Source: Balneolaceae bacterium (lineage in GTDB: Bacteria > Bacteroidota > Rhodothermia > Balneolales > Balneolaceae). Taken from it: a stretch of 64,000 nucleotides of DNA. The stretch lies in assembly GCA_034521495.1 (NCBI GenBank), contig JAXHMK010000009.1, positions 551,001 through 615,000 of the forward strand. Reading direction: 5' to 3'. A model generated the notes under the pieces. That model had not been told where the DNA came from. It was given only the letters and a program-made list of their open reading frames with translations, and did not search any database. Position numbers and translations under genes: made by a program. Shown piece after piece: positions 5,056-32,559 of this stretch (position 1 is the stretch's first letter; every line of letters begins with the position of its first letter).

Positions 5056-6495
5056 ATGTTAGGAAGTGCCCGACGCACAAAAATAGTTTGCACATTAGGT
5101 CCAAGTAGTAACACGTTCGAGGATATTGAAAAGCTTTATTTTGCGGGAATGAATGTTGTGCGAATCAATTTTTCCCACGGCTCACACGAAGATCATAAAC
5201 GAACAATTGGGTATGTACGGGAAGTTGCACAAAAGCATGAGTATTCTATACCGGTTTTAATGGACCTGCAGGGGCCTAAAATTCGGGTGGGTACCATGAA
5301 AGACGGCGGACAGTTTGTGGAAAGTGGCTCACAGGTGAAGCTGACGACTGATGATATTGAGGGAACAAACGAAATTGTACCGATTGATTATCCAAATCTC
5401 GCAGAAGATGCCGTTGTTGGAAATCAGATTTTGATTGATGATGGACTTCTTGAACTTAAAATCGTTGAAAAAAAAGGGTCGGAGTTAGTAGCCGATGTTA
5501 TTGTAGGGGGTGTTTTAAAATCACGAAAGGGAGTGAACCTGCCGGATGTTGAGATCTCGATGGGCTCACTTACTGAAAAAGATATTGAAGACCTGGAATT
5601 TGGCTTGGATGTAGGAGTAGATTATGTGGCGATGTCGTTCGTACGATCTGCCCGGGATGTACAGGATGTAATTTCCAGAATTCGGGCAAAGGGAAGTAAC
5701 GCAGCAATTATTGCCAAAATTGAGAAGCCCGAGGCGGTAGAAGTGATTGATGAAATTATTGAAGAGTCTGATGGAATTATGGTGGCCCGCGGTGATTTGG
5801 GAATTGAAATTCCAAGTGAGCAGGTGCCTTTGGTTCAAAAGAAAATAATTGAAAGGTGCCGGATGGCCGGTAAACCGGTTATTACTGCTACTCAAATGCT
5901 CGATTCAATGATCAACAATCCACGTGCTACTCGTGCCGAAAGTTCGGATGTGGCAAATGCCGTGGTTGACGGTACAGACGCTGTGATGCTTTCGGGTGAA
6001 ACGGCAGCCGGCAAGTATCCTGAAGAATCTGTCAGAACTATGGCAAAAATTATTAAATCGGTTGAGCAAAATGCATCATCCATCTATTACAGTTTGAAGT
6101 ATCGCAAACCAGACTGGAAAGAGAAGCAGGTGATTGAATCGTTGGCGTTTTCATGCGTTACTATTGCCGATAATGTTGATGCCAAAGCTATCAGTACCAT
6201 CACTCACTCCGGGAATACTGCAAGGCGGATCGCCAAATTCAGGCCAAAAGTACCGGTTGTGGCGTTTACGGAAAGCCAAATTGTACGCAGGCAATTGAAT
6301 CTTGTATGGGGAGTAAGCTCTGTTCGGCTCGATGAAATTTTTGATACGGATATGAGTGTAAAAATGATGGAAGATTATCTGCTCGAAAATGGATTGGTGG
6401 AAAATAACGACCGTGTAATTATTGCTACAGGTATTCCGCTTGCCAAACGAGGGCGAACGAATATGATTAAAGTGAGCACCATTCAAGATCAATAA
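5056..6495 (+). CDS. pyk: Pyruvate kinase
   Basis: Final step of glycolysis: phosphoenolpyruvate plus ADP to pyruvate plus ATP, cytoplasmic. The 479 residues match the usual bacterial length. Visible family motifs are RTKIVCTLGPSS at the N-terminus, MDLQGPKIRVG, the catalytic-lysine region IIAKIEKPEA, MVARGDLGIEI and TATQMLDSM, followed by the C-terminal allosteric-type domain. ATG at 5056; no Shine-Dalgarno sequence is evident, as for most genes here. The following TPR lipoprotein starts 33 bases downstream, so the two may be cotranscribed. Confidence 0.98.
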   Translation: MLGSARRTKIVCTLGPSSNTFEDIEKLYFAGMNVVRINFSHGSHEDHKRTIGYVREVAQKHEYSIPVLMDLQGPKIRVGTMKDGGQFVESGSQVKLTTDDIEGTNEIVPIDYPNLAEDAVVGNQILIDDGLLELKIVEKKGSELVADVIVGGVLKSRKGVNLPDVEISMGSLTEKDIEDLEFGLDVGVDYVAMSFVRSARDVQDVISRIRAKGSNAAIIAKIEKPEAVEVIDEIIEESDGIMVARGDLGIEIPSEQVPLVQKKIIERCRMAGKPVITATQMLDSMINNPRATRAESSDVANAVVDGTDAVMLSGETAAGKYPEESVRTMAKIIKSVEQNASSIYYSLKYRKPDWKEKQVIESLAFSCVTIADNVDAKAISTITHSGNTARRIAKFRPKVPVVAFTESQIVRRQLNLVWGVSSVRLDEIFDTDMSVKMMEDYLLENGLVENNDRVIIATGIPLAKRGRTNMIKVSTIQDQ

Positions 6496-17909: not shown

Positions 17910-18593
17910 CTAACTTGCAGTTTGAACTGCCAACGCATCCTCCACAAGCTCATCTCCCAAAATTTCCCTCGCTCGCTGATAAGCTTCATCAACCCGTTTT
18001 TCGCGAAATAGAGTTAAGATCTCAGAATCAATCAGTTCATACCAATGTTTCTTACGGGTATCGAATTCATCAATATGCTTTTTCATCGGTTTTCTGAGGC
18101 TCTGCATAAACTCCAGGAATTCGCCATACTCTGTTCCAAACTCTTTTTCGAATCGCTGGCGAATCCGAACAGCTAAAGCAGGAGCTGCACCACCTGTTGA
18201 AATGGAAATGGTCAGCGGACCTTGTTTTACGATCGAACCAAAAGCAAAATTGGCATGTGGAAGGTCATCCATCACATTGATGAGAATATTTCGTTCTGTA
18301 GCTTCCTGATATGCTTTTTTATTGATATTACCTTCGAACTCTGCGACGATAGCAACCGAAGCTCCCTCAAAATCACCATATTCATATTGACGAGGAATCC
18401 ATTCAAAACGTTCTTCGTCTGCCCATTCTTGAAGCTGCTCATTCAATTTTGGACTAATGACCGTTAACCATGCATCTCGATCCAAAAAATCTTTCACTTT
18501 TCCCTCGGCTTCCCAATTTCCACCGACAATCACGGTTTTTCGTTCATTCAACCGGCGCAGGTAAATCGGATAGACGTCTAATGCTTTTGACAT
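17910..18593 (-). CDS. Precorrin-2 dehydrogenase / siroheme synthase N-terminal domain protein
   Basis: NAD-dependent oxidation of precorrin-2 to sirohydrochlorin and, in this family, ferrochelation to siroheme, the cofactor of the sulfite reductase encoded upstream. The 227 residues equal the stand-alone CysG-N/Met8-type unit. YPIYLRRLNERKTVIVGGNWEAEGKV is the Rossmann start (usual GGG/xVA slightly altered to GGN/xEA). NVMDDLPHANFAFGSIVKQGPLTISISTGGAAPALA is the family core. Last gene of the sulfur operon, separated from cysH by a REP/BIME-like element. Confidence 0.92.
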   Translation of the reverse strand: MSKALDVYPIYLRRLNERKTVIVGGNWEAEGKVKDFLDRDAWLTVISPKLNEQLQEWADEERFEWIPRQYEYGDFEGASVAIVAEFEGNINKKAYQEATERNILINVMDDLPHANFAFGSIVKQGPLTISISTGGAAPALAVRIRQRFEKEFGTEYGEFLEFMQSLRKPMKKHIDEFDTRKKHWYELIDSEILTLFREKRVDEAYQRAREILGDELVEDALAVQTAS

Positions 18594-18634: not shown

Positions 18635-18776
18635 TAAGTTCCCCCTTTGAAGGGGGAAAGAATCAACAAAGTTGATTCAGGGGGATGAACTGATGAGATT
18701 GAATTCATGCTAAAGATCTTTTTTCGAACACAGTGTTTATCATCCCCCTGCGCCCCCTTCGAAGGGGGAGGTTTAA
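18635..18776. repeat. REP/BIME-like paired palindromes (copy 1)
   Basis: Two GC-rich palindromes in opposite orientation: TTCCCCCTTTGAAGGGGGAA at 18639-18658 and CCCCCTTCGAAGGGGG near 18754, with inner arms CAGGGGGATGA and TCATCCCCCTG. The unit spans ~140 bp and ends at the cysH stop codon. A similar paired unit lies at 39087-39212. It sits inside the sulfur operon, where it could stabilise or attenuate the mRNA. Confidence 0.75.
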
Positions 18777-19525
18777 TTCCCATTCTTATAATGATCAGGA
18801 AAATGAATTCCGCACTCTGTTTTATCCGTTCCGTTCCATCGGCCATTTCGGTCGTCGCTTTCTTTTGAGGCGTTGACCGGTTGGGTACAGGGAATACATC
18901 CGATGCTTGGAAATCCCTCATCGTGCATGGGGTTGTAGGGTAAATTCAGTCGGTGAATTTCATCCCAAATTGTTTCACCAGTCCAATGGGCTACCGGGTT
19001 GATTTTGAAGACTTCATTCTCTTCATTCCACTCCACAATTTTTACCTGGTGACGGGTTTCAGATTGACTCCGGCGAATTCCGGTTACCCACGCTTTTTTA
19101 TCAGAAAGATAGTTCCGAAGTGGAAGTACTTTCCTGTAAAAGCAGCATTGATTGGGATTTCTTTTCCACAGCTCATCACCAAATCGTTCAGCTTGTTCTT
19201 CCAGTGATAGTTCAGGGGTAACTCTCGTAATATCGATGTTGTATCGAGCTTCGAGTCTATCCTTTAATTCATATGTAGAATCAAACAAAAGATTTGTATC
19301 GAGATAAAAAATCGGGATGTCCAATCCATGGGTTTGTAACTGATGAATCAGAAAAACACCCGAAGAACCAAATCCTGTCCCGAGTACCATCTCTGTTCCA
19401 AATGTTTCATACCCCCAGGCAAGAATTTCGCTCGGATGAGAGTTTTCAAATCGTTGGTTTAATCGATCAAGGTCGTTGGGAGACAATTTTTCTGTTTTCA
19501 AAATCGGTTCGAGAACGTCCTGCAT
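18773..19525 (-). CDS. cysH: Phosphoadenylyl/adenylyl-sulfate reductase, [4Fe-4S] type
   Basis: Reduces adenylyl sulfate (or PAPS) to sulfite with thioredoxin. The paired cysteines C127-C128 and CxxC C210/C213 ligate a [4Fe-4S] cluster, which marks APS-preferring enzymes; the catalytic Cys is C238 in KTECGIH. The N-terminal PP-loop region is LGTGFGSSGVFLIHQL, and DTNLLF follows. With an APS-type enzyme no APS kinase is needed; no kinase or ATP sulfurylase gene is in the window. Fourth of five genes in the sulfur operon, with palindromic repeats on both sides. Confidence 0.95.
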   Translation of the reverse strand: MQDVLEPILKTEKLSPNDLDRLNQRFENSHPSEILAWGYETFGTEMVLGTGFGSSGVFLIHQLQTHGLDIPIFYLDTNLLFDSTYELKDRLEARYNIDITRVTPELSLEEQAERFGDELWKRNPNQCCFYRKVLPLRNYLSDKKAWVTGIRRSQSETRHQVKIVEWNEENEVFKINPVAHWTGETIWDEIHRLNLPYNPMHDEGFPSIGCIPCTQPVNASKESDDRNGRWNGTDKTECGIHFPDHYKNGN

Positions 19526-19862: not shown

Positions 19863-20666
19863 TTAAATAGCTAATAACTGATGTTGAATTTTCATCTCCG
19901 CTTCTGCCTCTTCGGTTTTAAACCAAGCCAAATCGTGGCTTAAAGCGGCAAGTTCGCCAATTACAATAGTAGCCGGAGGCGACAAGTGAGATGCTTTTTC
20001 AGCAATATTCGCCAAGGTTCCAACAGCCACTTTTTGTGAATCAAATGTTGCCCGTTCAACAACAGCTGCCGGGGTGTCGGGACTCTTGCCAAGTTCAATC
20101 AAAGTCTCAGAAATGTTTGACAGATTTCGAACGCCCATCAGCACAACCAGTGTATCTGCATGAATGAGATGGCACCAGTTTTCGAAATCGTCTGTGCCTT
20201 TAATGGTATGGCCGGTAACCACGGTAAAAGACCGAGCTGCTTTTCGATGCGTCACCGGAATACCCGCAAAAGCGGGAGCTGCCAATGCACTGCTGATACC
20301 CGGAATCACTTCATAGGGAACACCATTGGCTCGCAACTCTTCGCACTCTTCGCCGCCGCGCCCGAACACAAACGGATCACCTCCTTTAAGCCGGGCAACA
20401 TGCTTGCCGCTCAGCGCTTTGGATACCAATATCTGGTTGATCTGCTCCTGGGATACAGAAGGTTTATCCGGGCTTTTCCCCACATAAATGTGTTCCGAAT
20501 CAGGGCGGGTAAGCCCCAGAAGTTCCGGATTGGCAAGCCTGTCATACACGATGACATCTGCCAATTCCAGAACTTTCGATCCTTTTATTGTTATGAGGTC
20601 TGGATCGCCGGGGCCGGCACCAACCAGGTACACCTTTCCTTTTTCTAAATGTTTAAGTGTCTTCAT
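19863..20666 (-). CDS. cobA: Uroporphyrinogen-III C-methyltransferase
   Basis: SAM-dependent bis-methylation of uroporphyrinogen III to precorrin-2, first step towards siroheme. 267 residues. Motifs: VYLVGAGPGDPDL near the N-terminus, DVIVYDRLANPELL, ARLKGGDPFVFGRGGEE, PGISSALAAPAFAGIPVTHR. It is the single-domain SUMT form, with the dehydrogenase as a separate gene downstream. ATG 20666 lies 3 bases after the sulfite reductase stop codon, so the two are tightly coupled. Confidence 0.96.
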   Translation of the reverse strand: MKTLKHLEKGKVYLVGAGPGDPDLITIKGSKVLELADVIVYDRLANPELLGLTRPDSEHIYVGKSPDKPSVSQEQINQILVSKALSGKHVARLKGGDPFVFGRGGEECEELRANGVPYEVIPGISSALAAPAFAGIPVTHRKAARSFTVVTGHTIKGTDDFENWCHLIHADTLVVLMGVRNLSNISETLIELGKSPDTPAAVVERATFDSQKVAVGTLANIAEKASHLSPPATIVIGELAALSHDLAWFKTEEAEAEMKIQHQLLAI

Positions 20667-20669
20667 AAT

Positions 20670-22352
20670 CTAAGCCGGTATCTCTTCGGGTTCTTGAATT
20701 CCAACTCGGTTCCAAAAATCACTGAACGATTCGTTATCAGCACGTTCATTTTTGAAGTGTTCCAAAAGGGGACGCAATTCCTGCACCAGTTCTTCCCGCG
20801 GAACCATATCTTTGTATTCTTTATTAAGCCGCGTTCCGGACGGATCACCGCCGATAAAAATGCTGTACTTATCGAGAGATCGTCCAACAAAACCGATGTC
20901 CGCTACATAGGGACGCGAGCATCCGTTGGGGCAGCCGGTCATTCGTACGGAAAGTTTTTCATCCTGAAGATCGAGATCTACAAGCACATCATTCAGATCC
21001 CGAATGACAGCCGGCAATGCTCGTTCTGATTCGGTAATCGCAAGTCCGCAAGTTGGAAGGGCAGGGCAGGCCATCGAAAATTTGATGGCATTTGGAATTT
21101 CATCAGCTAAAGCCACTCCATGTTCGTGAAATACTTTTTCGATTGGTTCTTTTTGATTCTCGGGGATATCTGTGAGCAGCACATTGTGGTTAGGAGTCAT
21201 TCGAACTTCTGTTCTGAACTCCTTCACAACTTTTCGGAGAGCGGTTTTCAGTTTCAGATCTCCTTCATCTTTGATGCGGCCGTTTTCTACGGACACGCCA
21301 AGAAACCAATTTCCATCCGATTGCTGATGCCATCCCAAATAGAGTTCAAGTTCAAACTTTGGGATCTCCCGATATTCCTCAAGATCATAACCGATTCGGT
21401 CGATCAACTCATTTCTGAATTTGTCGAGTCCCCAATCGTGAATCAGGTATTTCATCCGGGCTTGTTTTCGATTTTTACGATTTCCGTGATCCCGTTGGAT
21501 TCCAATAATTCCTTTCACCACTTCCACCACTTTATCTTTGGTGATGTAACCGAGGTGATCTCCCAGACGAGGAAAGGTTTCCGGCTTGCGATGGTGCATT
21601 CCCATACCGCCGCCAACAACTACATTAAATCCTTCGATCTCATTCTCATCATCAAAAAGAGCCACGAGGCCGATATCCTGCGTGTACAAATCCACGCTGT
21701 TGTCGCCGGGAAGAGCAATACCCACTTTGAATTTTCGGGGGAGGTAACTTTTGCTGTAGAGTGGTTCGGCGGCACCGTTTGTAACTTCCTCTTTGCCGGA
21801 ATAGACTTTCTCGCCATCCAGCCAAATTTCGTGATAGGCTTTTGTGGCCGGGAGCAGAATATCAGACAGTTCATCTGCAAACTCTTGAACCCTGGCTTGC
21901 CGTCCGTCAATATCAGGAGCGGGTGTGGCCATCACATTTCGTACAATATCACCGCAGGCCCCGAGAGTGGTAATCAGGGAATCATTAATTTCTTTGATCG
22001 TTTTCTTGAGCTCTGATTTGATAACTCCATGGAGTTGAAAGGCTTGCCGGGTGGTTACACGAATCGTGCCGTCGGCGTACTCATTTGAGATATCATCCAC
22101 AGCCAGGTATTGATCCGGCGTCAGTTTTCCTGCCGGAGTTCTGCTGCGAATCATAAACATATAGTGGCGGTCGCGTCCCTTTCGTTTATCGCGGTCATCC
22201 TGCTGATAGGTGCCGTGAAATTTCAATACCTGGATGGCATCTTTGCTGAAATGATCTTCATCATTGGTGACCTCAACATCCAATGGGCCGCGAAGGTAAT
22301 CACTGCCTTCTTTAATTTTTTCGAGTTTACTTTTCTTTTTCTTCCTGCTCAT
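20670..22352 (-). CDS. cysI: Assimilatory sulfite reductase hemoprotein
   Basis: Six-electron reduction of sulfite to sulfide. 560 residues. The coupled siroheme/[4Fe-4S] centre is ligated by C429, C435 (CPALPTC) and C474, C478 (CPNGC). Other CysI-like motifs are FHGTYQQDDRD, RVTTRQAFQLHG and GACGDIVRNV. No flavoprotein (CysJ) is in the window, so the electron donor could be ferredoxin or a distant CysJ. A nitrite reductase is less likely given the cysH, SUMT and sulfurtransferase neighbours. Second gene of the operon. Confidence 0.93.
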   Translation of the reverse strand: MSRKKKKSKLEKIKEGSDYLRGPLDVEVTNDEDHFSKDAIQVLKFHGTYQQDDRDKRKGRDRHYMFMIRSRTPAGKLTPDQYLAVDDISNEYADGTIRVTTRQAFQLHGVIKSELKKTIKEINDSLITTLGACGDIVRNVMATPAPDIDGRQARVQEFADELSDILLPATKAYHEIWLDGEKVYSGKEEVTNGAAEPLYSKSYLPRKFKVGIALPGDNSVDLYTQDIGLVALFDDENEIEGFNVVVGGGMGMHHRKPETFPRLGDHLGYITKDKVVEVVKGIIGIQRDHGNRKNRKQARMKYLIHDWGLDKFRNELIDRIGYDLEEYREIPKFELELYLGWHQQSDGNWFLGVSVENGRIKDEGDLKLKTALRKVVKEFRTEVRMTPNHNVLLTDIPENQKEPIEKVFHEHGVALADEIPNAIKFSMACPALPTCGLAITESERALPAVIRDLNDVLVDLDLQDEKLSVRMTGCPNGCSRPYVADIGFVGRSLDKYSIFIGGDPSGTRLNKEYKDMVPREELVQELRPLLEHFKNERADNESFSDFWNRVGIQEPEEIPA

Positions 22353-22478: not shown

Positions 22479-23321
22479 TTACCGTTCGATCGGAGCATCG
22501 ATCAGGTTGCCCCACTCCGTCCAGGAACCGTCGTAATTCCGCACAGTTGGGAAATCGAGCAGTTCATTCAGGACAAACCAGGAGTGAGCGGATCGCTCCC
22601 CGATTCGGCAGTAAGCAATAATTTCCTTATCGGGAGTGATTCCTTCATCCGCATAGATTTTGGTAAGCTCTTCTTTGCTTTTGAAGGTACCGTCTTCATT
22701 CACAGCTTTCGACCATGGAATGTTAGACGCTCCGGGAATATGACCGGCACGCTGAGACAGTTCATCCAATCCGGGAGGTGCCAGGATTTTTCCTGTGAAC
22801 TCATCCGGAGAGCGAACATCCACGAGGCCAAAGTCATCGGCGTTGAGTCGTTTTTTGATATCATCTCTGAAAGCACGGTATTCGCCTTTCACATCGCCAA
22901 CCGTGTAATCGGTTGAGTCATATTCGGGAACGTCGGTTGTGAGATCCCGGCCTTCAGCTTCCCACTTTTTGCGTCCGCCGTCGAGGATGCGAACATCATC
23001 GAACCCATAGTATTTGAGCAACCAGTACGCCCAAGCGGCAAACCAGTTGTTGTTGTCACCATACAAGACAACCGTGGTATCTTCATCAATTCCGGATTTT
23101 TGAAGCAGTTTTTCAAAATCCTCTTTTGATGCGATGGTTCTTCGAAGTTGATCCTGGAGTTCCTTTTTCCAGTTCCAGCCTACAGATCCCGGAATGTGTC
23201 CCGAGTCATAAGCTTCAGTGTCAACGTCGACCTCTACAAAACGGACATCTTCATCGGTAAGATGATCGGCTGCCCAATCGGTAGTTACGAGTACTTTTTT
23301 ATCTGTTAATGTATCTGGCAT
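22479..23321 (-). CDS. Sulfurtransferase with two rhodanese domains
   Basis: Thiosulfate or 3-mercaptopyruvate sulfurtransferase, 280 residues. The N-terminal rhodanese domain (~10-130) is the inactive type (VVLYGDNNNW, Asp where Cys would be). The C-terminal domain carries the persulfide Cys C238 in YCRIGERSAH. The active-loop sequence CRIGERS resembles thiosulfate-type (CRVGxRS-like) enzymes, but substrate choice is uncertain. First structural gene of the sulfur operon; its ATG lies 88 bases after the leader terminator. Confidence 0.93.
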   Translation of the reverse strand: MPDTLTDKKVLVTTDWAADHLTDEDVRFVEVDVDTEAYDSGHIPGSVGWNWKKELQDQLRRTIASKEDFEKLLQKSGIDEDTTVVLYGDNNNWFAAWAYWLLKYYGFDDVRILDGGRKKWEAEGRDLTTDVPEYDSTDYTVGDVKGEYRAFRDDIKKRLNADDFGLVDVRSPDEFTGKILAPPGLDELSQRAGHIPGASNIPWSKAVNEDGTFKSKEELTKIYADEGITPDKEIIAYCRIGERSAHSWFVLNELLDFPTVRNYDGSWTEWGNLIDAPIER

Positions 23322-23409
23322 TGTTTTAGCTTTGTGTTTTTGATTGGTGTTTTAACTCATTCTCACAAAGCCCAACTAACATTCAAACAGGCAGGCGGGT
23401 GTATATAAC

Positions 23410-23440
23410 AAAAAAGCCCGCCACCTGTTAGGTAGCGGGC
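23410..23440 (-). terminator. Leader terminator (attenuator) of the sulfur operon
   Basis: On the minus strand GCCCGCTACC, loop TAACA, GGTGGCGGGC, then TTTTTT: a 10-bp stem with one G-U pair. Read on the plus strand the same site has a C-A mismatch, so it is built for minus-strand RNA. It lies 25 bases after the leader ORF stop and 88 bases before the sulfurtransferase ATG, with no upstream gene for it to terminate. This placement indicates transcription attenuation. Confidence 0.8.
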
Positions 23441-23487
23441 TTTGTATGAAGATCGTTGTGTTAAATCAGCATATTTTTTCCACTACC
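23431..23487 (-). promoter_or_regulatory. Possible antiterminator helix
   Basis: Leader RNA segment GGUAGUGG (23487-23480, in codons 30-33 of the leader ORF) can pair over 8 bp (one G-U) with CCGCUACC (23438-23431), the 5' arm of the terminator. The two structures exclude each other. A ribosome stalled in the Cys block would leave the first segment free, whereas one reaching the stop codon would cover part of it. Read by eye, not folded computationally. Confidence 0.5.
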
Positions 23488-23576
23488 TTTCCCGGCATCA
23501 TCATACAACAGATCATACAGCACATATTTCGGTGCGCAGTCGCGGAAAAGTTTGTGGTTACCATTTGCTGATTCAT
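23466..23576 (-). CDS. Cys/Met-rich leader peptide (36 aa) of the sulfur operon
   Basis: A short ORF starting at ATG 23576 and ending at TGA 23466. Its 36 residues contain 5 Cys and 7 Met; residues 18-27 read MCCMICCMMM, nine of ten being sulfur amino acids. It lies just before an intrinsic terminator and the sulfate-assimilation operon, the arrangement of amino-acid attenuators such as trp or his leaders and of the polycysteine uORFs known from mycobacteria. Stalling at Cys codons (19, 20, 23, 24) when Cys-tRNA is scarce would favour the antiterminator. No other protein function is suggested. The start lacks a Shine-Dalgarno sequence, like most genes here. Confidence 0.75.
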   Translation of the reverse strand: MNQQMVTTNFSATAHRNMCCMICCMMMPGKVVEKIC

Positions 23577-23619
23577 TAAAAAATTGTGTTAGACATCAAG
23601 TCGTTTTCAACGTGCAATT

Positions 23620-23648
23620 AGGTTAAACACTAAATTGATTCATGTCAA
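23620..23648 (-). promoter_or_regulatory. Candidate promoter for the leader and sulfur operon
   Basis: A perfect TTGACA (23648-23643, minus strand) is followed after 17 bases by TAACCT (23625-23620). It lies ~45 bases upstream of the leader ATG. The -10 match is weak and Bacteroidota-type promoters differ from this consensus, so it is only a candidate. Confidence 0.3.
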
Positions 23649-24352: not shown

Positions 24353-26113
24353 TTAATCATACGTTAAGAGATTTGCGGCACTACCATTGATCTCTTGTTT
24401 TCTGAAACTCAGTGAAAAACTACTTTCAGTTTTCGTAATATTGCTGTTAAAACTGGCATTGAGTTGTTTTAAGAAAACATCGAAAAGTTTAGACTGCTTT
24501 CCGCTCTTACTGGGACTTATTATTTTATCAGAAAGCTTGAAACCTTCTATAAAAAAATTTACGGTAACATTATTATCTTTTTCAGATACATTTAGAAATA
24601 TTTTTCCTCTCTTCTTATTCGACTTTGCTTGGAATAAAGCATCAGTAAGAAATTCATTTATAACCAATGTACAGGGAATTGCTTGATTTGCATTTAATTT
24701 AATTTCTTCAACTTTGAATTTGAATTGAATATAATGAAGAGGTTTAAGCGTCTTGAATGTTTGATCTATTAGATGCTTGATTATTTTCTTTAAATCTACA
24801 TTGACTAAAGATTTAAAATCGTACATAATCTTATGAACAGCTGCAATAGATCTAATTCTTGATTGGAAATATTTTAGTTCATTCTTTAATTGTTTGTTAT
24901 TTACATCCTGGAACTGTAGATATATCAGGGCATTTATAATTTCAAGATTGTTGTTTACTCTGTGGTGGATCTCTTGCAATAAAATATTTCTTTCTTCAAG
25001 TGATTTTTTAAGGCTCTTTTGAGATTTCTTGTTTTTTGTAATGTTGGTTGCTAATCCTACAACCCAAAAATCTCGTCCGTTGGGAGCTAAAGTGGGAGTT
25101 TTTAACGTTTGGAAGTATCTTTTTTCTCCGGCAATTTCTACAACCTCTTCCTGAACAATGGGTTGCTTTGTTTCAAGAACTTTCAAATCACCATTTCGAA
25201 TAGGTGAAAGCTCTTCATCATAAAAAATATCCTGGTCTTTCAAATTAGAAGAGTCCAATTCTTTGTTACGAATCAGCTTTTTAAAAGCTTTGTTGATAAA
25301 TTTGTAGGATCCGGTTTTATCCTTTGCATAAATAATAATATCCGTACTATTAACAAGTTTTTTGTAAAACCTCTCCCTGAAATGATTTTCCATTGAAGCT
25401 TTCTTTTGTTCAGAAACATCAACAGCAAAGCCCATCAGATGAGGTTTTTTATCAATTTTCACTTTTCTTGCAAAAAAGTGATAGTCGATATCAGATTGAC
25501 TTTTTGACAAAAGAGGGGCTCTTAAATCTGCTTGACCATTCGATAGAACTTCTTCAATCTTTTGATGAACGACCGGGTGAATTTCCTTTCTAAAAAAATC
25601 AGCAGGTTTCATGGACGATATTTCTTGAGAACTGTAGCCGGTTACTTTCTCAAGTTCAGAATTCCAATCAAGAAATTGGCCATCCGCGGTTAGTAAGAAA
25701 AACAGTTGGGAAGAACCGTTAGAATGGTATTTTCGAGAGTACGATTCAGGAGTATTTGTACCTATGCCTGCTGGAGTATCATAAATTTTTTGAATGGTTA
25801 TGAGAAGTGCTTCTTTGCCACTAATATTAATTTTCAGCCCAGAAAGTTTTACAGGACGTACATTTGTGCGTCTCGTATTCATAAAAAATACTTTATCATC
25901 TTTTGGATAAAGTAGATGATCTGTAAAGGAGCGGTGGTTGTTGAACTCAGCATCATTCAACAGATCTGGAAAGTATAAACCCAATATTTCGGAATTGTTG
26001 AGCTTTGTAAACGTTAGAAAGGAAGGATTAAAATGGAGAATTTCTAATGTTTCCGCATCAATTACGATGGCAGGGTTTTGGCAGTTCTCAAAATATTCTG
26101 GATCAACTTTCAT
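24353..26113 (-). CDS. PAS-domain sensor histidine kinase, HisKA_2 type, with degenerate ATPase domain
   Basis: A 586-residue cytoplasmic protein with no membrane helix. Three PAS-like domains occupy roughly 1-110, 125-240 and 245-365. A HisKA_2 dimerisation motif EIHHRVNNNLEIINALIYLQ contains the putative phospho-acceptor H384. The following HATPase region keeps an N-box-like INEFLTDAL (Asp491 where Asn is usual) but has no DxGxG G1 box and no GxG G2 box; FFIEGFKLSDK stands in the G1 position. It may be a pseudokinase or have diverged nucleotide binding. It lies beside a PAS-AraC regulator on the same strand. A+T-rich with Lys/Asn/Ile-rich codons, unlike the neighbouring operons. Confidence 0.8.
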   Translation of the reverse strand: MKVDPEYFENCQNPAIVIDAETLEILHFNPSFLTFTKLNNSEILGLYFPDLLNDAEFNNHRSFTDHLLYPKDDKVFFMNTRRTNVRPVKLSGLKINISGKEALLITIQKIYDTPAGIGTNTPESYSRKYHSNGSSQLFFLLTADGQFLDWNSELEKVTGYSSQEISSMKPADFFRKEIHPVVHQKIEEVLSNGQADLRAPLLSKSQSDIDYHFFARKVKIDKKPHLMGFAVDVSEQKKASMENHFRERFYKKLVNSTDIIIYAKDKTGSYKFINKAFKKLIRNKELDSSNLKDQDIFYDEELSPIRNGDLKVLETKQPIVQEEVVEIAGEKRYFQTLKTPTLAPNGRDFWVVGLATNITKNKKSQKSLKKSLEERNILLQEIHHRVNNNLEIINALIYLQFQDVNNKQLKNELKYFQSRIRSIAAVHKIMYDFKSLVNVDLKKIIKHLIDQTFKTLKPLHYIQFKFKVEEIKLNANQAIPCTLVINEFLTDALFQAKSNKKRGKIFLNVSEKDNNVTVNFFIEGFKLSDKIISPSKSGKQSKLFDVFLKQLNASFNSNITKTESSFSLSFRKQEINGSAANLLTYD

Positions 26114-28498: not shown

Positions 28499-30289
28499 AT
28501 GGACCTTAAGGCTGCCCTTTCCTGGATCAGGAATAAATTTACCATTCTTACCTGGATTCACAGATACACCAAAGATGATTTTTGGGCCGATACCAAAGCA
28601 GGACTCACGATTGGTGTAATTGTAATCCCGCAAGTAATGGCTTATGCCGTAATTGCCGGATTATCGCCCATTTATGGTTTATACGGATCACTCGTTCCGC
28701 TGTTGATCTACCCGTTATTTGGAACATCACGACACTTATCACTTGGTATTGTAGCTACGGACATGATTATTATTGCGTCCGGTGCCGGGATGATAGCAGA
28801 ACCCGGTTCGGGAGAGTATGTTTCTGTGGTAATTTTGCTAACCATGTTTGTGGGCCTTGTTCATATTGGGCTATCTCTGCTTCGAATGGGATTTTTGGTG
28901 AACCTGCTTTCAAAACCTGTTATTTTTGGTTTTACAGCCGCTGCCCCTCTCATTATTGTATTCAGCCAGTTGGGGAATATTCTTGGCGTCGATCTCGAGC
29001 GATCTCAATACATAGGCATTATAGCTATGCAGATTTTTGAAAAAATTGAGATGGTAAATTTTATGGCGCTGGGAATTGGATTGATTGGTTTTGCTATGCT
29101 TTTCCTGTTAAAAAAATGGAATCCACTTTTCCCGAGAGCACTCGTTCTGTTAGTGGCAGGAGGATTTATGGTGTGGGGATTTAATTTGCAGGATTATGAA
29201 ATTGAAGTGATTGGTTCAATCCCGTCAGGCCTGCCATTTTTTGATTTTCCTGAATTAACTCTCAATAACCTTCGCCGGTTAATTCCCACCGTTACAACCT
29301 TAGCTTTGGTTCAGCTTATGACTGTAATTTCGCTTGGAAAGACGTATGCTAAAAAGTACAAATATCCCATTAACCCAAATCGCGAATTCTTTGCAATCGG
29401 AGCGGCAAATTTTATAGGAAGTTTTTTCCAGAGCCCGCCCATTTCAGGCAGCTTTTCAAGAACAGTTGTGAGTGAGCAGGCGGGGACCCGAACCACGCTT
29501 TCTAACGTTATCTGTGCCGTAGTGATCTGTTTAACACTGTTGTTTTTAACGCCCCTGTTTTACTACATACCGGTTGCCGGTCTCTCGGCTATTATCATTC
29601 TGGCTGCTTTATCATTGATAGATTTTGACGAACTGCGATATTTATTCCGTACGAAACCTGAAGATGGCTACATCGCATTATTTACATTTTTTAGTGTGCT
29701 TTTGATTGGAATTCAGGAGGGAATTCTGTTGGGAATTGGCGGATCGCTGCTTTTGGTATTATATCGTTCCAGCCGACCAAATCTTGCTGTTTTAGGCCAT
29801 ATTCCAGGCACTCGTACATACCGTGATATTTCCCGAAATCAACAAGCCGAACCAATAGAGGAGATCTTGATTTTACGGTTTGATGCCGCCATTAACTTCA
29901 ATAATGCGGAGTTCATCAAAGATTTTATCATCCAAAAAAGCGAGGACAGGAACAAGAAAATACGTGCGGTTATTGTAGACGCGATGAGCATTAATGATTT
30001 GGATACGACTGCCATCGAAGCGTTACACTCGGTTATGGAAACCCTGGAAACCTGGGATATCGAATTTCATTTTGCGGGAATGAAGACTCCGGTTCAAAAA
30101 TTATTAACACGTTCGGGACTTGCACGTAGTCTTGGCGGTACTCATTTTCATGAAAGCACGCATTTGGCTGTGAAATATCTGTTGGAGAAGTGGGATCAGA
30201 AAGAAAAAGAATCTCATAGCCCGGAGTTAGTGGATCTGTTTGAAGAACCTCATCGTTTGAAAGACTATATGAAAAACGTTGATGATTAA
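28499..30289 (+). CDS. SulP-family anion permease with STAS domain
   Basis: Inner-membrane sulfate (or bicarbonate/other anion) transporter, 596 residues. The N-terminal ~430 residues hold about a dozen membrane helices, starting with IGVIVIPQVMAYAVIAGLSPIYGLYGS, the sulfate-permease signature, and including FIGSFFQSPPISGSFSRTVVSEQAGTRT. A STAS domain follows (~450-570; VIVDAMSINDLDTTAIEAL). Given the sulfate-assimilation operon 5 kb away and a second anion permease immediately downstream, sulfate import is plausible but not proven. ATG 28499. Confidence 0.93.
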   Translation: MDLKAALSWIRNKFTILTWIHRYTKDDFWADTKAGLTIGVIVIPQVMAYAVIAGLSPIYGLYGSLVPLLIYPLFGTSRHLSLGIVATDMIIIASGAGMIAEPGSGEYVSVVILLTMFVGLVHIGLSLLRMGFLVNLLSKPVIFGFTAAAPLIIVFSQLGNILGVDLERSQYIGIIAMQIFEKIEMVNFMALGIGLIGFAMLFLLKKWNPLFPRALVLLVAGGFMVWGFNLQDYEIEVIGSIPSGLPFFDFPELTLNNLRRLIPTVTTLALVQLMTVISLGKTYAKKYKYPINPNREFFAIGAANFIGSFFQSPPISGSFSRTVVSEQAGTRTTLSNVICAVVICLTLLFLTPLFYYIPVAGLSAIIILAALSLIDFDELRYLFRTKPEDGYIALFTFFSVLLIGIQEGILLGIGGSLLLVLYRSSRPNLAVLGHIPGTRTYRDISRNQQAEPIEEILILRFDAAINFNNAEFIKDFIIQKSEDRNKKIRAVIVDAMSINDLDTTAIEALHSVMETLETWDIEFHFAGMKTPVQKLLTRSGLARSLGGTHFHESTHLAVKYLLEKWDQKEKESHSPELVDLFEEPHRLKDYMKNVDD

Positions 30290-30744: not shown

Positions 30745-32559
30745 ATGAGTCCAGATCAGATAATTGTCTTTGGAGTTTTACTTCTAACCATTATTGCACT
30801 TGCCTCCGATGTATGGAGTCCCGATGCCGTATTGTTAACAGCAGTTGCAGCTGTCACTGCATTGGGAGTCATGACCTTAGAGCAGGCTGCCATGGGATTT
30901 GGAAACACAACCCTGCTTGCCCTGGGAAGCCTTTACGTTATTGCAGCTGCATTGCGGGAAAGTGGTGCGTTAGACAGGGCAAGTGAGTTTATACTCGGCA
31001 GGAAAACAAAGAAAATTCGAAGGATTTTAATTAGGCTATGTCCGAGCGTTGCGGCTTATTCTGCATTTTTGAACAATACGCCCGTCGTAGCAATGGGTAT
31101 CCCCGCAATTCGGAGCTGGTCTCAAAAGAACCGTATTCCCGCTTCAAAATTATTGATTCCTCTCTCTTACGCGGCCATCCTTGGTGGTTTATGTACACTG
31201 ATTGGAACCAGCACAAATCTCATTGCTCATGGACTTTTACAGGATTATGGATATGAGGGTTATTCGTTTTTTGAATTGGCGTGGCTTGGAGTTCCGTGTG
31301 CTATTGTAGGATTGATATATCTTGTTTTAGTATCTCCGGGATTAACTCCGGCGCGGCGGGATATTCGATACGAGGAGGAGAGAAAACGAGAGCTATTGGT
31401 TGAAATTGAAATCACAGATGATGCTCAAATTATCGGTAAAACAATTCATGAAACTGGTTTGGACAAGCTGCCTGGCTTCTATCTTTCGAGGATTAACAGG
31501 AATGATCGTGAAATAGCTCCGGTACCACCAAACGAAAGGTTCAGAGTTGGAGATCATTTAATGTATGCCGCAAAGGGTGGAATTGCAGCAAAAGTGCCAT
31601 CTCTCAGCAATTATCCGGGTCTTCAGATACTATATCAACCACCGAGGACTATTAAAAGAGACAGAAAACAGGACCGGGAACTGCACCAGATTGTAGTAAA
31701 AGAAGGGTCGCGTTTAGTGGGCTCAACCCTGGAGAATGCACGATTATTGGAGCGATTTGGTGCGGCTGTAACCGGCATAAGGAGAAAGGGAAAACGAGTT
31801 GACAAAGCCCTTGGAGATTTTGTAATTCAAGCCGGTGATGTACTTCTCCTTGATACAGGACGAGGGTTTCGGGGCGCTTATGAAGATACTGAGGATTTTT
31901 TCCTCACAAGTGAGGCGGGTGGTGAAGAGATTGAAAGCAGGGAAGAAGTAAAGGAGGAACGTCCCGGAGGTAAATCGCTGTATGTTTCTGTGGCGGTACT
32001 TTTTGGAATCGTTGTAAGCGTAGCTTCCGGTATGCTGGATATTGCTTTAGCGGGTTTGATTGGTGTGGCAACTCTGTTTGCATTTAATGTGATCGAACCG
32101 GGAGAAGCCAGGAAATCAGTAGATTGGACCGTTCTGATTGTAATTGGTGCAGCGTTAGGCTTAGGAAAGGCGATGGAAGTAAGCGGTACGGCAGATTTGA
32201 TAGGTTTTTGGATGATTGATTTAACCAGCGAGTACGGAAATTGGGTATTGCTTGCCGGTATTGTTTTGGTAACAGCTTTGTTAACTGAAATTATCACAAA
32301 TAATGGGGCTGTGGCTATTATGTTTCCAATTGTATTGTCAGTGGCCGGCTCCATGGATATCGATCCACGGGCAATGTTTATTGCCGTAACTCTTGCGGCT
32401 TCTATGTCGCTTATCAGCCCGATTGGATATCAAACCAACCTGATGGTGTACGGTCCCGGGAATTACCGATTTACGGATTTTTTCAGAGTTGGTTTTCCTC
32501 TGCAAATTATCCTCTGGACCGTTGTCATTCTTCTCGCTCCGGTGATTTGGCCACTGTAA
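30745..32559 (+). CDS. SLC13/DASS-family anion permease with two TrkA-C domains
   Basis: Inner-membrane transporter of the Na+/sulfate-dicarboxylate type, 604 residues. Paired substrate/ion motifs are visible: NNTPVVAMGIPAI with GTSTNLIA in the first repeat and TNNGAVAIMFPI with SPIGYQTNLMVYGPGNY in the second. Between the halves (~205-385) sit two RCK_C/TrkA-C domains (EIEITDDAQIIGKTIHETGL; IVVKEGSRLVGSTLENARL), as in the YfbS-like subgroup. Substrate is probably sulfate or another divalent anion, given SulP upstream. Start ATG 30745 follows the MITE-like element by ~50 bases. Confidence 0.92.
   Translation: MSPDQIIVFGVLLLTIIALASDVWSPDAVLLTAVAAVTALGVMTLEQAAMGFGNTTLLALGSLYVIAAALRESGALDRASEFILGRKTKKIRRILIRLCPSVAAYSAFLNNTPVVAMGIPAIRSWSQKNRIPASKLLIPLSYAAILGGLCTLIGTSTNLIAHGLLQDYGYEGYSFFELAWLGVPCAIVGLIYLVLVSPGLTPARRDIRYEEERKRELLVEIEITDDAQIIGKTIHETGLDKLPGFYLSRINRNDREIAPVPPNERFRVGDHLMYAAKGGIAAKVPSLSNYPGLQILYQPPRTIKRDRKQDRELHQIVVKEGSRLVGSTLENARLLERFGAAVTGIRRKGKRVDKALGDFVIQAGDVLLLDTGRGFRGAYEDTEDFFLTSEAGGEEIESREEVKEERPGGKSLYVSVAVLFGIVVSVASGMLDIALAGLIGVATLFAFNVIEPGEARKSVDWTVLIVIGAALGLGKAMEVSGTADLIGFWMIDLTSEYGNWVLLAGIVLVTALLTEIITNNGAVAIMFPIVLSVAGSMDIDPRAMFIAVTLAASMSLISPIGYQTNLMVYGPGNYRFTDFFRVGFPLQIILWTVVILLAPVIWPL

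Follow-up and report, generated by a model that had tools for sequence, protein, structure and literature searches.

Leader-peptide attenuators of the Escherichia coli type, such as those of the trp and his operons, are built on a short ORF rich in codons for the end product of the pathway, and we know of no strand behind the terminator in the standard attenuation model. The SAM-I riboswitch (RF00162) binds S-adenosylmethionine directly. Cys leader peptides were known before in mycobacteria and had been proposed for one alphaproteobacterial gene. Seliverstov 2005 (PMC1262725) describes such peptides in mycobacteria, Propionibacterium acnes, and Bifidobacterium longum, with attenuation proposed and, in Mycobacterium, without conserved terminator hairpins; the first-pass annotation of the present DNA had also pointed to polycysteine upstream ORFs in mycobacteria. 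Judging by the title of Canestrari 2020, as cited in PMC13236596, the mycobacterial Cys leader peptides are cysteine responsive. In the Rhodobacterales, according to PMC8632094, uORFC-8-2 combines two tandem Cys codons with an intrinsic terminator and is found exclusively upstream of cysS. Leader-like short ORFs have also been reported in Bacteroides thetaiotaomicron, sulfur genes not being named in the available part of PMC7366714, and in that of PMC2965389 no word starting with "bacteroid" occurs. Among openly licensed papers, we found no report of a mixed Cys/Met leader peptide or of any sulfur leader peptide in the clade of the present DNA; the first-pass annotation likewise knew of none described in the Balneolota.

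The locus described here lies in a 64,000-nt stretch of Balneolaceae DNA (the window). From its sequence and that of its relatives, we consider it very probable (roughly 0.87) that it carries a transcription attenuator of the ribosome-mediated, leader-peptide type, responding to sulfur amino acids via tRNA charging; the sensed species would be charged tRNA-Cys and probably also tRNA-Met. An attenuator of the sulfate assimilation operon had been proposed by the first-pass annotation, and the proposal is supported by a conserved ORF and terminator and by a covarying antiterminator. At the sequence level, most features of a trp-type attenuator appear to be present, namely, an ORF with a cluster of pathway codons, a terminator before the first gene, and an antiterminator strand close behind the stall codons (Table 1). 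The 36-codon ORF was found as described, with nine Cys or Met residues in the ten positions 18 to 27, and so was the gene content of the operon, i.e., sulfurtransferase, sulfite reductase, SUMT, cysH, and siroheme gene. The distances also hold, with 22 to 25 nt (given as 25 bases) from the leader stop codon to the terminator stem, depending on the chosen stem start, and 88 nt from the terminator to the sulfurtransferase ATG (position 23321). The scan counted 14 pairs in the terminator, which had been said to be needed by no upstream gene; its nearest same-strand neighbor upstream stops at position 24353, 0.9 kb away, so that the terminator is not that gene's. The claimed pairing of codons 30 to 33 with the terminator 5′ arm is likewise recovered as the helix of strands 2 and 3 (2:3; positions 23487 to 23480 with 23438 to 23431), 8 bp with one G-U.

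Table 1 Features of the leader region and of the operon behind it (positions are those of the window)
Feature	Position	Strand	Remarks
Putative promoter −35 element TTGACA	23643..23648	minus	Sequence; absent from the sigma-70 scan list
Putative promoter −10 element TAACCT	23620..23625	minus	Sequence; putative start site ~23613
Leader ORF	23466..23576	minus	36 codons, MNQQMVTTNFSATAHRNMCCMICCMMMPGKVVEKIC + stop
Sensor codons 18-27, MCCMICCMMM	23496..23525	minus	9/10 Cys/Met
Strand 2, antiterminator strand GGTAGTGG, inside the ORF (codons 30-33)	23480..23487	minus	
Intrinsic terminator (strands 3:4 + T-tract)	23410..23443	minus	Terminator scan, covariation
Strand 3, terminator 5′ arm CCGCTACC, common to both hairpins	23431..23438	minus	
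Strand 4, terminator loop end + 3′ arm AACAGGTGGCGGGC	23416..23429	minus	
Strand 5, CCCGCCTGCCTGTT, complementary to strand 4	23386..23399	minus	
Strand 6, GCTTTGTG, 5′ arm of the hairpin preceding the start codon	23364..23371	minus	
Strand 7, CACAAAGC, 3′ arm of the strand 6:7 hairpin	23329..23336	minus	
Rhodanese-type sulfurtransferase, first gene of the operon	22479..23321	minus	
Assimilatory sulfite reductase hemoprotein	20670..22352	minus	
Uroporphyrinogen-III C-methyltransferase (SUMT)	19863..20666	minus	
cysH, (P)APS reductase	18773..19525	minus	
Siroheme-synthase (precorrin-2 dehydrogenase) type protein	17910..18593	minus	

Among the 696 short ATG ORFs on both strands of the window, the leader alone combines at least four Cys plus Met per eight residues with a terminator-like hairpin behind it. 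Rfam gave nothing above the gathering score at this leader (the Thr and Trp leader matches scored 22 and 20.9 bits, where 55 and 41 are required) and no match in L001, which is the window leader, or in L012; no SAM-I riboswitch was detected at the window leader either. A promoter-like TTGAC(A/T) with a 17-nt spacer stands upstream of 11 of the 24 leaders compared below. By eye, the strand 6:7 hairpin recurs in roughly 15 of the 20 aligned rows (L037 lying outside these rows). Near the operon, a SulP-type permease (positions 28499 to 30289, plus strand) and a CitMHS/TrkA-C transporter (positions 30745 to 32559, plus strand) may serve sulfate; the ORF scan of the window found no Cys/Met leader before either of them.

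In the mechanism that we propose, transcription would start near position 23613 and a ribosome would translate the leader ORF. With ample Cys-tRNA, and presumably Met-tRNA, the ribosome would pass codons 18 to 27 and strand 2 (GGUAGUGG); with strand 2 traversed, strands 3 and 4 would pair, the terminator would form, and transcription would end before the sulfurtransferase. Under a shortage of Cys (or Met), the ribosome would stall in the Cys/Met cluster, leaving strand 2 to pair with strand 3, and with this pairing in place the terminator would not form in time and the operon would be transcribed. In the read-through RNA, strands 4 and 5 could then pair (4:5), which would fix the antiterminated form.

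The first-pass annotation had suggested looking in relatives for the Cys/Met codons and the terminator, and the comparison leaves its proposal unrefuted. Orthologues were located through the sulfurtransferase, some relative of which occurs in 142 of the 395 genomes of the phylum sample; a close orthologue is present in 20 of 92 Balneolaceae genomes, at 21 loci. An in-frame Cys/Met-rich ORF stands at 20 of these loci and a terminator starting AAGCCC, GAGCCC, or AAACCC at all 21, including two missed by the terminator heuristic and plain in the sequences. Cys/Met positions were better kept than other positions in four of five equal-length leader pairs (e.g., 11/13 versus 11/21), the two kinds of position being equally high in the pair L012-L036 (12/13 versus 22/24). 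The one locus without the ORF, L038, is the second tandem copy in a genome (G286, contig C43) where the sulfurtransferase is duplicated within 5 kb (L054 and L038); this copy retains the terminator and an antiterminator-like strand.

None of the 16 distant orthologous loci (L016 to L031) has this Cys/Met ORF with this terminator. In one genome of a distant family, G078 (L030/L055), the sulfurtransferase is preceded by a Cys-rich ORF (CACPCQKVCC) and a terminator, perhaps of independent origin. At three Salinibacter-type loci (L022, L024, and L025), Cys-run ORFs (VCLCSCLCG-like) lie about 290 nt upstream of the sulfurtransferase, with GGCTCCCGGAGCC or a looser copy of it (a small GC hairpin) and a T-run within about 10 nt behind the ORF, by eye, and L026 has an upstream CCCLMACCRC ORF. 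On their sequence, the Cys-run ORFs of these four loci are perhaps separate Cys leaders.

The RNA elements were compared across 24 leaders, i.e., those of the sulfurtransferase loci plus L051, L052, L056, and L059. The terminator helix is paired in 94.2% of 360 alignment cells, and in 6 of its 15 pairs both sides have changed. For the 2:3 helix, 95.8% of 192 cells are paired and three of eight pairs are changed on both sides, a count reached by 72 of 500 shuffles; its covariation score is 0.221 versus 0.168 in shuffled alignments and was reached by none of 500. Window GGTAGTGG x CCGCTACC has counterparts elsewhere, such as GGTAGTGG x CCACTACC, GATAGCGGG x CCCGCTATC, and GGCAGTGG x CCACTGCC. 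The duplex between ORF end and terminator arm has a mean z of −3.6 versus dinucleotide shuffles, and own pairs beat swapped ones, with 0 of 2,000 permutations as good and P = 0.0002 on 13 nonredundant loci. The proposed pairing of the leader segment with the terminator arm, to the exclusion of the terminator, is borne out by this comparison.

With strand 2 anchored on the terminator arm, the geometry suits a stalling ribosome in all 24 leaders, the last Cys codon before strand 2 ending 9 to 18 nt upstream of it. Strand 2 itself ends 5 to 21 nt before the stop codon, also in all 24, so that a ribosome resting there would, in many leaders, leave part of strand 2 exposed, and the masking must come from a moving ribosome. 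The 2:3 pairing varies in strength: in 4 of the 24 leaders just 6 or 7 of 9 pairs are formed, and it is weak in the SusC-type leaders described below (mean z of −0.7, n = 4), where a 2-nt bulge is seen by eye, and in the Cys-only leaders (mean z of −1.5, n = 3). A protector pairing of strands 1 and 2 is clear in no more than about half of the leaders (z below −1.5 in 11 of 24; own versus swapped, P = 0.008).

Alternative folds, whose computation the first-pass annotation had suggested, were obtained for eight leaders. When leaders were folded up to the T-tract, the terminator was the minimum-energy state in eight of eight, even with strand 2 free, and antitermination must therefore be kinetic. 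Folding of eight read-through RNAs placed 2:3 beside 4:5 at minimum energy in three (L037, L014, and L008) and gave 4:5 without 2:3 in L006; in L001 (window), L032, L012, and L010, the terminator hairpin was still the minimum-energy form.

Strand 5, which like the wider set of operons was not included in the first-pass annotation, is a pyrimidine-rich segment between terminator and start codon that pairs with the terminator loop and 3′ arm. Across the 21 loci, the 4:5 duplex reaches −21.9 kcal/mol for own versus −17.3 kcal/mol for swapped partners (0 of 5,000 permutations), with the same outcome on 13 nonredundant loci. Across 23 sequences, pairing holds in 83.3% of 365 cells, and 9 of 17 pairs show changes on both sides (reached by 3 of 500 shuffles), with a covariation score reached by 0 of 500; the structure was drawn from one of these 23 sequences, which puts the slid control at a disadvantage, and the terminator is close to palindromic in its own right. 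Strand 5 is absent where the leader directly precedes cysH (L052 and L059). As strand 5 is transcribed only after the termination decision, it would either fix the antiterminated form or affect translation. Its pairing with the start codon is better for own than for swapped partners (−10.1 versus −7.9, 21 loci; P = 0.015 on 13 nonredundant loci) and good in about 10 of the 21 loci, and strand 5 could conceivably cover the start codon. A pairing of strand 5 with strand 2 was considered and rejected (own, −7.7; swapped, −8.3; P = 0.97).

Leaders of this kind are also found before other genes. Where the sulfurtransferase is absent or broken, the leader stands directly before cysH (L052 and L059) or SUMT (L056), and in L051 it is followed by a sulfurtransferase remnant and then by sulfite reductase. 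In the latter genome (G407, positions ~5250 to 5420), only the C-terminal end of the sulfurtransferase is left between leader and sulfite reductase, either a true deletion or an assembly fault. A covariance model built from the 24 leaders and run on 390 genomes gave a match at an E value of up to 1 in 283, mostly plain terminators among those read (12 fetched matches plus 27 loci). That such terminators are common is what one would expect if the window held an ordinary constitutive terminator behind a chance short ORF, yet conservation, covariation, and gene context all speak against that explanation, which is hardly credible. The 12 fetched matches comprised four Cys/Met leaders before SusC-like genes (L182, L183, L185, and L186), six Trp leaders, and two spurious hits (L184 and L191) set aside by eye as having no leader ORF of this kind. 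The SusC-like identity rests on a Pfam assignment of L182 as a TonB-dependent receptor and on like N termini in the other three; leaders at this position suggest the uptake of a sulfur-containing nutrient. The six Trp leaders, which served as a positive control, precede Balneolaceae trp operons (L187 to L190, L192, and L193) and have Trp-Trp or Trp-Trp-Trp runs with the same terminator/antiterminator layout.

The genome of the window itself has a second cysH with a Cys-only leader (CCCC), as do two relatives, and a metY whose Cys-rich leader has a SAM-I riboswitch behind it. A scan of the regions upstream of cysH (90 loci) and metY (50 loci) returned 23 Cys/Met matches; run with eight other residue pairs, it gave 0, 0, 0, 0, 0, 0, 1, and 2, one of these few matches being itself a Cys/Met leader. 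For metY of Balneolaceae (L314 to L333), the SAM-I riboswitch is present in 20 of 20 stretches and the scan found a leader in 16; three weaker leaders below its threshold (L318, L320, and L323) were read by eye, and in L319 none was seen within the 171 nt examined above the riboswitch. The leader lies upstream of the riboswitch in 19 of 19 cases, with 73 to 114 nt from leader stop to riboswitch, an arrangement that would place Balneolaceae metY under two RNA sensors in series. A Cys/Met leader with terminator, a SAM-I riboswitch, and metY follow one another in L175 as well.

Outside the Balneolaceae, the scan passed 2 of 72 cysH stretches (L215 and L221, each with a small gene between leader and cysH) and 2 of 30 metY stretches (L246 and L248), plus one doubtful case for each gene; behind these two, L245 and L260, stand genes that by eye seem unrelated to sulfur. 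The covariance-model search contributed further cases at cysH (L156) and metY (L157). The remaining one of the 23 scan matches, L206, is the sulfurtransferase leader itself, viewed from the neighboring cysH. Before the Balneolaceae cysH of a second, 220-residue kind (L307 to L313), the scan found a leader in none of seven.

The first-pass annotation had treated Met as secondary, a view that needs revision. The 24 leaders contain 137 Cys and 134 internal Met among 839 residues, Met being as frequent as Cys. Internal Met makes up 16.0% of residues in these leaders, 13.1% (60/458) in 20 metY leaders, and 21.3% (33/155) in 4 SusC-type leaders, versus 2.2% (3/139) in the 6 Trp leaders and 1.9% (1/52) in the 3 Cys-only leaders, which have 18 Cys among their 52 residues. 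This enrichment over the background level of the Trp and Cys-only leaders can be read as selection for Met codons wherever Met is relevant, the simplest case being that Met is sensed as a second amino acid.

The main rival, that the attenuator senses cysteine alone and the Met codons are spacers without regulatory meaning, is the less likely reading, to which we give about a third of the weight. Cysteine is in the direct product line of sulfate assimilation, and the Cys-only leaders on the second cysH of the window's genome and of two relatives fit this explanation. So does the position of the Met codons, which are often nearer to strand 2 than the Cys codons, such that a ribosome stalled there would cover strand 2. 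Spacers would, however, hardly account for the Met frequencies above, and ATG has no base in common with TGT or TGC at any codon position, which means that Met is no mutational by-product of Cys codons. Most leaders, moreover, have Met codons among and before the Cys codons, and the SusC-type leader L185 has nine internal Met with only two Cys.

Two further explanations concern what else the Cys/Met stretch might do. CxC and MxxM spacings are reminiscent of metal-binding peptides, and stalling from any cause would work the same RNA switch; a nascent peptide that binds copper, zinc, or an oxidant and thereby arrests the ribosome is nevertheless improbable, as no Cys or Met spacing is fixed across leaders, the leaders read stand mostly before sulfur genes and otherwise before SusC-like receptors, and Trp leaders on trp operons share the RNA layout. 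It is still less probable that the UGUAUG-rich RNA itself is the target of a protein or metabolite, with an incidental ORF. A UGU- and AUG-rich stretch does run through the 24 aligned leaders, and with no known RNA family above threshold a new one is formally open; against this, the frame stays open from ATG to stop despite length changes, Cys is encoded by both TGT (104 codons) and TGC (33 codons), and any shared RNA word is lost in the Cys-only and Met-rich versions.

Attenuation by a leader peptide sensing charged tRNA remains the preferred reading, and for its fullest form the odds seem to us even. In this form, the interleaved Cys and Met codons would act as an OR gate that opens the operon when either charged tRNA-Cys or charged tRNA-Met runs short. 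The same code would run a sulfur regulon in Balneolaceae (sulfite reduction, cysH, metY, and SusC-like uptake), with Cys-only versions at genes for which cysteine alone should count, and would act in series with SAM-I on metY; strand 5 would capture the terminator 3′ arm in the read-through RNA and might add a translational tier. If right, sulfur control by tRNA charging would extend over several operons, with two serial RNA sensors on metY. It would also provide a case in which the sensing of two amino acids by a single peptide could be tested, although Met starvation should also hurt initiation, a point in favor of sensing of Cys alone.

Set against the systems described to date, the new elements suggested by these sequences are the mixed Cys/Met code, its placement on several sulfur operons, the series arrangement with SAM-I, and strand 5; Cys leader peptides themselves were already known. 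With the polycysteine leaderless uORFs of mycobacteria (PMC1262725 and PMC13236596), the window leader shares Cys-codon runs upstream of sulfur genes, and it differs in having a terminator and antiterminator, a predicted 5′ untranslated region of about 37 nt, and Met mixed in. Between the end of the promoter-like −10 element and the leader ATG there are 43 nt, which makes a leaderless start unlikely, and with a terminator present the locus falls outside that class. It falls outside the uORFC-8-2 class of alphaproteobacteria as well: both join a uORF containing Cys codons to an intrinsic terminator, but uORFC-8-2 is confined to cysS and has two tandem Cys codons, with no Met cluster described in the available part of PMC8632094, so that gene and codon cluster are different. 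Like SAM-I (RF00162), the leader would control sulfur genes, and in Balneolaceae the riboswitch sits between the Cys/Met leader and metY. The likeness to the trp and his attenuators lies in the ORF of end-product codons and in the single strand shared by antiterminator and terminator; the differences are that Cys and Met would be sensed here and that an extra strand 5 stands behind the terminator. Finally, both here and in the Trp leaders of Balneolaceae, the ORF contains the antiterminator strand ahead of its stop codon, unlike the arrangement known from E. coli.
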